NCBI GenBank assembly: GCA_028281665.1
Contig: JANQJK010000008.1
Coordinates: 1-64,000 of the forward strand
Source of the DNA: Hyphococcus sp.
Lineage (GTDB): Bacteria > Pseudomonadota > Alphaproteobacteria > Caulobacterales > Parvularculaceae
Direction: 5' to 3'
Length of the DNA: 64,000 bases
Part shown: positions 26,188 to 27,813 of the stretch, piece by piece
How the letters are laid out: every line of letters starts with the position of its first letter
Numbering within the stretch: position 1 is the stretch's first letter
Notes under the pieces: generated by a model
The model's input: only the letters and a program-made list of their open reading frames with translations
Told to the model about the DNA's origin: nothing
The model's database searches: none
Program-made: the position numbers and the translations under genes

Positions 26188-26631
26188 ATGATCAGCGACC
26201 TTTATTCCGGACCCATTCTCGACGCCGCCGCCGGCATCCCGCCCGCGCGCCGGCTTGAGGCGCCGGACGCCAGCGCCAAAAAGGTCAGCCGGGTATGCGG
26301 CTCCGAAGTTGAGGTCGACGTTAGAATGGAAGACGGCGTTGTGGTCGATTTCGGGATGACCGCGCGGGCCTGCGCCCTCGGCCAGGCGGCCGCTTCGCTG
26401 GTGGCGCAGAACGTCATCGGCGTCACGGCGGAAGAGTTGCTTGTCTTGCGCGATGAGATGCGTGCGATGTTGAAAGGGAATGGCCCCCCGCCGTCAGGCG
26501 AACGCTGGCGGGGTCTTGCGGCGCTGGAGGCCATACGCGACTACCCCCAGCGTCACGCTTCGACGATGCTCGTTTTCGAGGCCGTCGCCGACTGCCTGAC
26601 GCAGCTGGGGTTTCAGCGTGAAAACGCCTAG
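26188..26631 (+). CDS. IscU/NifU-N-like iron-sulfur scaffold homologue lacking one Cys ligand
   Basis: 147 residues. VCGSEVEVDVRMEDGVVVD (C37) and ARACALGQAAASLV (C62) align with the first two cysteines of IscU-type Fe-S scaffolds. Where the third Cys is expected, around residues 121-125, there is QRHAST instead; the only other Cys is C136. This subgroup is common in alphaproteobacteria and may bind metal differently or act as a carrier. No isc or suf genes are adjacent. Ribosome-binding site weak. Confidence 0.8.
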   Translation: MISDLYSGPILDAAAGIPPARRLEAPDASAKKVSRVCGSEVEVDVRMEDGVVVDFGMTARACALGQAAASLVAQNVIGVTAEELLVLRDEMRAMLKGNGPPPSGERWRGLAALEAIRDYPQRHASTMLVFEAVADCLTQLGFQRENA

Positions 26632-26719
26632 CCGGCGGGCCGGAACGCATTGTTGCATATGACAGAAATATAACCGTTGGTGGGTTGCAGACCTTGCGCA
26701 AAATCATATGTCTATCGCT

Positions 26720-26802
26720 GAAACGGTCGTCACTCTCTCCCCCCGACTGACCGCTTCCGAGCGCCCGCATTTCGAACTCCCCCACGAAATGCGGGCGTTT
26801 TT
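26720..26802 (+). ncRNA. Candidate small RNA with two C-rich hairpin loops
   Basis: The sequence between the scaffold gene and the LysR gene folds into two hairpins. Hairpin 1: CGGTC (26724-26728) plus GTC pairs with GAC and GACCG (26749-26753), exposing the loop ACTCTCTCCCCCC. Hairpin 2: the perfect 13-bp stem CGCCCGCATTTCG / CGAAATGCGGGCG (26762-26774 with 26785-26797), exposing AACTCCCCCA, then TTTTT. The 5' end is estimated; TTGCAG (26685) and TATGTC (26707) could be -35/-10. C-rich loops able to pair with Shine-Dalgarno sequences are known in alphaproteobacterial trans-acting sRNAs. No ORF fits. Confidence 0.55.
26762..26802 (+). terminator. Perfect 13-bp rho-independent terminator
   Basis: Arms CGCCCGCATTTCG and CGAAATGCGGGCG match without mismatch around a 10-nt loop, followed by five T. 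It lies 130 bases after the scaffold gene stop, too far for a simple gene end, and probably terminates the sRNA; read-through from the scaffold gene could also end here. Confidence 0.9.
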
Positions 26803-26877
26803 CATTTGAACCGCATAAAGACGGATCGTCTTCGGATGGTTGCGTCGGCGCGCGCTCGTTTACACCGCGATGGGCCG

Positions 26878-27813
26878 TTACGCAGCAGCCTCCTGCGCGT
26901 CCGCGGCGTCGACGCTTGCCGCCGCCTCTGCCTTCAGCCACGCCGCGAAGGCCTTCACTGACGCCGAGCCGGACTTGGACGGCGGGTGCACGATGTAATA
27001 GGCAAAGTCGGTGGGCGTCGTCAGGTCGAAGGGGATCACAAGCCGGCCGGCTTCGAGATCGGCGAGGGCGAGCGCGGATTTTGCGAGCGCCACGCCCTTG
27101 CCGGCGACGGCCGCTTCGATCACGAGGCTCGACTGATTGAATTTGAGGCCCCGCGTTCCCTCCTTGTGGCAGACGCCTGCGGCTTTCAGCCACATGGGCC
27201 AGTTCGGAATCTTCTCGTCCTTGTCCGGCGATGAATCATGCAGCAGCGTGTGGTGCACGAGATCGTCCGGCGCCTTCAGCGGATTGTCGCCGGTCAGCAG
27301 GGACGGCGCGCAGACGGGTACGATCTTTTCGGCCATCAAATGGTCGACCACCAGGCCGGGATACCGCCCGCCCCCATAGCGGACGGCGAGGTCGACGTCT
27401 TCCACGGCGAAATCGACCACATCCATGTCGGCGGACACCCAGACGTCGATTTCGGGGTTGGCCTCCTGGAAGCTGTCGAGACGCGGCACCAGCCATTTCG
27501 ACGCGAAGGACGGAGCCACGGAAACCGCGAGGCGGCGCGAATCCGCCTTGGCCGCCAGAATTTCCGCCGCCTCGGTGAGCTTGTCGAACCCTTCGCGCAG
27601 GACCGGCAGGCTTGCCTGGGCCTCGTCGGTCAGCAGGAGAGCCCGTTTCTCGCGGCGGAAAACGGGAGTTTGCAGAAAATCTTCAAGCGCCTTGATTTGC
27701 TGGCTCACGGCGCCCGGGGTTACGTGCAGCTCCTCCGCCGCTTTAGTAAAACTTAAATGCCGAGCGGCGGCCTCAAAGACTTTCAGTGAATTTAGGGGTG
27801 GCAGACGCTTCAT
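26878..27813 (-). CDS. LysR family regulator, GcvA type
   Basis: 311 residues. The N-terminal winged HTH (residues ~1-65: LPPLNSLKVFEAAARHLSFT, VTPGAVSQQIKALED) is followed by a two-lobe substrate-binding domain. RYGGGRYPGL and the KWLVPRLDSF segment are typical of GcvA-like regulators. The start at 27813 (MKRLPPLNSL) is chosen; upstream codons are not in the family. It is divergent from the cysG operon, which it might regulate in addition to itself, but GcvA-type proteins control varied pathways, so that is inference. Confidence 0.92.
   Translation of the reverse strand: MKRLPPLNSLKVFEAAARHLSFTKAAEELHVTPGAVSQQIKALEDFLQTPVFRREKRALLLTDEAQASLPVLREGFDKLTEAAEILAAKADSRRLAVSVAPSFASKWLVPRLDSFQEANPEIDVWVSADMDVVDFAVEDVDLAVRYGGGRYPGLVVDHLMAEKIVPVCAPSLLTGDNPLKAPDDLVHHTLLHDSSPDKDEKIPNWPMWLKAAGVCHKEGTRGLKFNQSSLVIEAAVAGKGVALAKSALALADLEAGRLVIPFDLTTPTDFAYYIVHPPSKSGSASVKAFAAWLKAEAAASVDAADAQEAAA

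Follow-up and report, generated by a model that had tools for sequence, protein, structure and literature searches.

A short intergenic stretch of Hyphococcus sp. DNA probably holds a stand-alone small RNA (sRNA) gene with its own regulated promoter and its own terminator, whose C-rich hairpin loops would block the ribosome-binding sites of trans-encoded mRNAs. The sRNA, of ~85-88 nt, lies at positions 26718..26805 on the + strand of the window (the whole stretch of 64,000 nucleotides that was analysed) and is delimited by its fold, by covariation, and by a covariance model. Its predicted structure with compensatory support, its strand, its conserved synteny, and its conserved promoter-like elements are what the sequences show.

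The RNA consists of two hairpins. Hairpin 1 (26720..26757, + strand) has arms at 26720-26731 and 26745-26757, enclosing the loop ACUCUCUCCCCCC at 26732-26744. Hairpin 2 (26759..26802, + strand), the terminator stem, has arms at 26759-26774 and 26785-26800 and the loop AACUCCCCCA at 26775-26784, and the sequence at its end is a U tract, UUUUU (26798-26802, + strand). No mismatch interrupts the 13-bp stem of hairpin 2 (CGCCCGCATTTCG/CGAAATGCGGGCG). The predicted minimum free energy of 26719-26805 is -38.2 kcal/mol, compared with -18.45 kcal/mol (sd 2.84) in 200 dinucleotide-preserving shuffles, none of which is as stable (z -6.95). An earlier note on this DNA had described the two hairpins with C-rich loops, the perfect 13-bp stem, and the T tract, and all of these were confirmed. 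Structurally, hairpin 2 plus the U tract looks like a terminator whose loop is long, and the 5' end would lie near 26718-26720. A simple promoter scan and a simple terminator scan gave no match at the sRNA locus: the terminator scan missed hairpin 2 because its 10-nt loop exceeds the length that the scan allows, and the promoter scan missed the putative promoter because its -10 region is poor. The earlier statement that no open reading frame (ORF) explains the element holds for the + strand, where no ORF of at least 60 aa spans the sRNA; a minus-strand ORF of at least 60 aa (26423-27193), overlapping the neighbouring LysR gene, does span it. A small coding gene was rejected, as the length steps among homologues are not multiples of three.

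Homologues were collected in successive searches. With a query of 141 bases, BLASTN gave matches at E <= 1.4e-9 in 6 of the 60 relatives searched (own genome included), the remaining matches being short and weak. A covariance model built from those six sequences (R1) scores the window sRNA at 102.9 bits, with the window sequence being part of its training set, and matches 43 of 149 relatives at E <= 0.1, most strongly within the own genus. We aligned 34 homologues, namely the window and 33 other loci, with MAFFT and without structural information (alignment A8). Left out were L096 (E 0.51), L106, L131, and L099 (E 0.57-0.97), L118 (2500 nt away, on the other side of LysR), and a reverse partial match in L058; L074, which has hairpin 2 only, was likewise left out of A8 and kept in the loop tally.

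The RNAalifold consensus of A8 contains 15 pairs, of which 14 show compensatory changes (4 of 4 modelled pairs in hairpin 1 and 10 of 11 in hairpin 2). Pair cells are paired in 95.6% of 505 cases (82.2% in shuffles), 81 cells have changed on both sides (21.2, sd 5.0, in shuffles), and none of 500 shuffles reaches any of five covariation measures, a significance that the shuffles overstate since the A8 sequences are related. Sliding the structure along A8 lowers the paired share to 30-49%. Among the homologue folds, the stems CGGUC, GGCCC, and AAUCC substitute for one another. The alignment holds 35 G-U/U-G cells versus 8 A-C/C-A cells, and the RNA therefore corresponds to the + strand. Both hairpin loops carry CCCC in 33 of the 35 homologues folded; only L080 and the truncated L074 deviate. 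In A8, the loop cores have the highest mean majority identity, 0.84 and 0.86; stem 1 has 0.72 and stem 2, the inner part of which is conserved as well, 0.80. The loops are thus somewhat better kept than the stems, by a modest margin in a plain column count. The earlier note had proposed to look in relatives for conserved loops and compensatory changes; the 14 of 15 pairs across 34 homologues and the C runs in 33 of 35 folds show both and support the interpretation as an sRNA with anti-Shine-Dalgarno (anti-SD) loops.

The gene neighbourhood is conserved, too. Upstream lies a gene for a NifU_N-domain protein (26188..26631, + strand; PF01592, 32.2 bits), and downstream the convergent gene of a LysR-type regulator (26878..27813, - strand; PF03466 and PF00126), both being syntenic neighbours. 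The NifU-like stop codon is 86 nt away from the sRNA, and another 72 nt separate the sRNA from the end of the LysR gene; the NifU-like/sRNA/LysR block is preceded by a pirin gene and followed by a siroheme synthase gene. In 28 of 80 LysR loci (the best 80 of 159 from a LysR alignment search), an R1 match occurs on the opposite strand, at most 200 nt downstream of LysR, 4 of the 28 (L058, L059, L060, and L064) being copies of R1 training sequences. The 28 include the loci of two isolates, Marinicaulis flavus (L073) and Amphiplicatus metriothermophilus (L079). Three further matches sit 544-1347 nt from LysR (L091, L086, and L090), and R1 gave no match at L069, L081, and L088, although the first two of these still show the last part of the NifU-like gene beside LysR. 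From L092 on, the LysR protein is a more distant relative, and no such RNA adjoins LysR in the 13 of these 46 loci that were inspected. At the 14 loci first retrieved with a second model, R2 (see below), the NifU-like gene adjoins in all 14 and LysR in 13.

This close linkage bears on a different reading, in which the element forms the 3' terminus of the NifU-like transcript (a terminator plus a stabilising hairpin) or an sRNA cut from its 3' untranslated region. The element starts 86 nt after the NifU-like gene and hairpin 2 would halt read-through; three genomes from a different family of the order have a similar two-hairpin RNA closely behind the stop codon of a flavodoxin-like gene; and, according to the excerpted part of the source, the Rhodobacter RNAs CcsR1-4 are processed out of a precursor that encodes a protein (PMC10253847). 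We nevertheless regard such an origin as quite unlikely. C-rich loops that are kept in both hairpins while the stems change are unexpected for a plain terminator, and elements resembling a promoter stand at near-fixed distances before the RNA, as set out in what follows.

Counted from the first base of the covariance model, a TTG is found at -42 to -28 in all 34 homologues and at -33 to -38 in 33 of them, with at most 10 TTGs in each other 5-nt bin outside -42 to -28 (a descriptive count). TTGA or TTGC occurs at -40 to -30 in 31 of 34. In the window this position is occupied by the putative -35 element TTGCAG (26685..26690, + strand). The putative -10 region, CATATGTC (26705..26712, + strand), was read from the sequence and the upstream regions; it is weakly conserved, and a consensus scan was negative. 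Further upstream, TGACAGAAATATAA (26660..26673, + strand) is a candidate activator site, with one mismatch to the dyad TRAC-N6-GTMA. Allowing one mismatch at most, this dyad is present in 21 of 34 upstream regions (13 perfect), always at -58 to -63. In 300 mononucleotide shuffles there were on average 0.16 perfect dyads (at most 2) and 3.3 with up to one mismatch (at most 9), figures that describe rather than test, as the motif was picked after viewing the same sequences. The constant distance of the dyad is a stronger argument than its counts. Apparently, then, the sRNA has its own, regulated promoter. The sigma-EcfG promoter consensus, GGAAC-N15-18-CGTT, occurs in none of the 34 upstream regions.

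As for the regulator, the neighbouring LysR protein was considered. A TTAG-N5-CTA box precedes the LysR gene in 15 of 33 LysR leaders (L058-L091) and is perhaps an autoregulatory site of that gene. Control of the sRNA by this protein through the same box is not supported because the box is absent from all 34 sRNA upstream regions.

That the gene is expressed, that its RNA pairs with mRNAs and represses them, and which targets and regulator take part, we infer. In the reading that we prefer, a promoter with the -35 TTG and the upstream regulator-binding dyad would give rise to an RNA of ~85 nt, ending at its own terminator hairpin. Each hairpin would expose a single-stranded pyrimidine loop (UCUCUCCCCCC and CUCCCCC, respectively) resembling the anti-SD end of 16S rRNA. 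These loops could pair with G-rich ribosome-binding sites (GGGGGAGAGA and GGGGGAG) of trans-encoded mRNAs, whereby binding of the 30S subunit would be blocked, and one sRNA might regulate several mRNAs in this manner.

Sites complementary to loop 1 do occur where such a mechanism would place them. In the own genome, GGGGAGAG is found 12 times at 3-12 nt before an ATG (once for the reversed pattern) and GGGAGAGA 18 times at 2-12 nt before an ATG (once reversed), two of the 18 sharing one site; these counts fit a Shine-Dalgarno (SD) role. The 10-mer GGGGGAGAGA does not occur before an ATG in the own genome. It does so at 27 places in 13 of the 28 genomes of the genus (none for the reversed pattern); two of these entries are one site, several are repeats of one another, and most open only short ORFs. 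Within the window, GGGAGAG is found 5 times versus a shuffle mean of 6.4, i.e., it is not enriched. Our confidence in a stand-alone anti-SD sRNA is slightly reduced because the 10-nt complement is absent from the own genome and the difference between loops and stems is modest.

The same counts speak to the question of what the loops act upon. Instead of ribosome-binding sites, their partner could be an RNA-binding protein or a G-rich sRNA, the latter comparable to CrfA with SisA-D in Caulobacter. Partner RNAs other than mRNAs do exist for C-rich sRNAs, as the G/A-rich loop of CrfA pairs with the C-rich core of SisA-D according to an excerpt of its description (PMC12559287), and no conserved mRNA target was found among the candidates examined. 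We consider such a partner very unlikely, given that the two 8-nt complements of loop 1 precede ATG 12 and 18 times in the own genome versus once each when reversed.

Turning back to ribosome-binding sites as the preferred partners, the ORFs behind the SD-complement places encode, among others, a tryptophan-halogenase family protein, a flavin adenine dinucleotide (FAD)–dependent oxidoreductase, a DUF1439 protein, a virginiamycin-B-lyase-family protein, and a DNA methylase that we take to be CcrM-like (Pfam: N6_N4_Mtase and RAMA); many of the places open only short ORFs. The methylase was followed across the genus, where it has 25 loci in 24 of 28 genomes; 23 were taken for reading the leaders, of which 17 were readable. 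It was rejected as a conserved target, GGGAGAGA being kept in just 2 of the 17 leaders (own genome and G023). In the window and at 7 of 45 loci, a complement of loop 1, GGAGAGAG, is present in the LysR leader. On average, LysR leaders pair with the loops 2.6 kcal/mol better than shuffled leaders (32 loci; the LysR query began 2 residues late), pirin leaders 2.9 kcal/mol better (24 loci), and NifU-like leaders 2.0 kcal/mol worse (32 loci), with 3 cysG rows left out of the comparison. Because the pirin leader beats its shuffles by more and the NifU-like leader does worse than its own, the complementarity of the LysR leader is probably generic, and the LysR mRNA was dismissed as a special target. 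Taken together, the sequences support a kind of target site, with no single target established.

Known sRNA families offer close analogies. Neither in the window nor at 16 homologue-bearing loci does any family reach its Rfam cut-off, in line with the earlier suggestion that the family is not identified and may be new. The best Rfam score at the sRNA locus is that of ar14 (RF02344), with 20.1 bits (E 0.13) over the full model length and a cut-off of 58.8; nowhere in 100 relatives is this cut-off reached, and 43 of the 100 have a weaker match at E <= 0.1. With scores below the cut-offs, membership in an Rfam family, including ar14, was rejected. In Sinorhizobium meliloti, NfeR1/ar14, of the "cuckoo" group, silences ntrBC with redundant anti-SD loops (PMC10746234; this source and the others cited here are represented by excerpts). 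Its hairpins each carry a C-rich anti-SD loop on stems of variable sequence, and it has a sigma-70-like promoter with a conserved upstream motif (PMC10746234, PMC3927594). The window sRNA shares the trait of anti-SD motifs in unpaired loops on variable stems. As excerpted, however, ar14 has three hairpins instead of two, and its loops are identical CCUCCUCCC whereas those of the window sRNA are UCUCUCCCCC and CUCCCCC; CCUCCUCCC occurs in 1 of 34 homologues and never twice. The box of the LysR-type protein LsrB, TGCA-N6-GCAT, as upstream of NfeR1, is found in none of the 34 upstream regions of 96 nt.

Similarly, sX13 of Xanthomonas has stable stems with apical C-rich loops and represses mRNAs with G-rich motifs near the start (PMC3771888, excerpt). 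It differs in its three hairpins and in belonging to another class of bacteria, and the sX13 model (RF02232) gives the window sRNA 18.8 bits with a cut-off of 50. GsrN of Caulobacter resembles the sRNA in having a C-rich loop in its 5' part and a 3' hairpin; its excerpted description differs in the sigma-EcfG promoter, the usual linkage to general stress genes, and the activation of katG (PMC5869019). The alphaproteobacterial aR8, MmgR, and SisA-D also share the anti-SD signature, but there the 10-mer UUUCCUCCCU sits in a single-stranded stretch and not in loops (PMC12559287, excerpt), and its core is present in none of the 34 homologues. Finally, the Rhodobacter CcsR1 (RF02791) owes its Rfam name to a conserved CCUCCUCCC motif and scores 25.5 bits (cut-off 65.3) at one RNA of another family of the order (L046, see below). 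On the other hand, it is cut from the ccaF1 precursor (PMC10253847, excerpt) and its model has no match at the window locus up to E 10.

By its conserved C-rich loops, its compensatory stems, and its predicted terminator, the window sRNA would be of the functional anti-SD-loop kind. By analogy, it probably silences mRNAs at their ribosome-binding sites through its C-rich loops, and it most likely works like ar14/NfeR1 or sX13 and forms a separate family. It would thus represent a new family of a known kind, with the cuckoo group being known here through excerpts of citing papers. Literature searches returned no paper on Parvularcula sRNA or Marinicaulis small RNA, and none of the titles and abstract beginnings of related literature names this sRNA. 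This well-supported family, with its promoter element and phylogenetic range, is an addition to a bacterial group for which no sRNA papers were found (Parvularcula and Marinicaulis), and the group includes cultured strains (M. flavus and A. metriothermophilus). It is also another case of C-rich loops that persist as the stems around them vary, and it offers complements at ribosome-binding sites that can be tested.

The phylogenetic range was assessed with a covariance model built from all 34 homologues (R2), many of whose training sequences come from the searched genomes. At E <= 0.1 it has matches in 46 of the family's 62 genomes. The stricter limit of E <= 1e-6 leaves 34 of these 62, among them 24 of the genus's 28 genomes (four having no strong match). 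Further matches were obtained in 60 of 299 genomes of the order at E <= 1e-3 and in 5 of 385 genomes of the class at E <= 1e-4, own genome included. All inspected matches outside the family are at other genomic places.

Several RNAs of related appearance, which may be homologous or convergent, were noted besides. Three genomes from a different family of the order (L045, L046, and L048) have, a short way 3' of a flavodoxin-like (WrbA-type) gene, presumably wrbA (Pfam: FMN_red and Flavodoxin_1), that adjoins a pirin gene, an RNA of two hairpins with CCUCCCCC loops. The 6C model gives the L046 RNA 38.8 bits (cut-off 47). The link to pirin in two families is suggestive only. Four genomes from a different family of the order (L165-L168) carry a two-hairpin RNA that has a UCUCUCCCCCC loop and overlaps a stop codon, which in L165 belongs to a chemotaxis-receptor-like gene; L166-L168 were assigned by DNA likeness. 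RNAs built in the same way, but with CCUCCUCCC loops, are present in two genomes (L236 and L237) from yet another family of the class. The own genome holds a second two-hairpin candidate with C-rich loops (L238; G000:C10:138374-138462, - strand), which the ar14 model scores at 26.5 bits (E 0.007).

Such RNAs invite a wider reading: the sRNA may belong to a large, as yet unregistered class of two-hairpin RNAs that extends across the order and whose loops are the part preserved by selection. It would then act not as a regulator of one or two mRNAs but as a broad competitor of 16S rRNA at many GGGGGAGAGA-type sites, switched on by a regulator at the TRAC-N6-GTMA dyad. We think this unlikely; if true, L238, L165-L168, L045/L046/L048, and L236/L237 would be siblings of the window sRNA.

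At L158, L232, L239, L241, and L244, in several genomes of the genus, what is apparently one same gene has 3' of it a further candidate RNA whose hairpin loops are C-rich. At L158 this gene encodes a DM13-domain protein, and the other four were assigned by DNA likeness by eye; the RNA 3' of the DM13-type gene is likely a sibling family. Two R2 matches in the own genome, C22:362948 and C3:180423, were set aside as terminators with a C-rich loop that lack the first C-rich hairpin. Three genomes (L152, L154, and L156) share a conserved terminator whose long stem is perfect and whose loop is CCCCC; in L152 it lies 3' of the gene for ribosomal protein S9.
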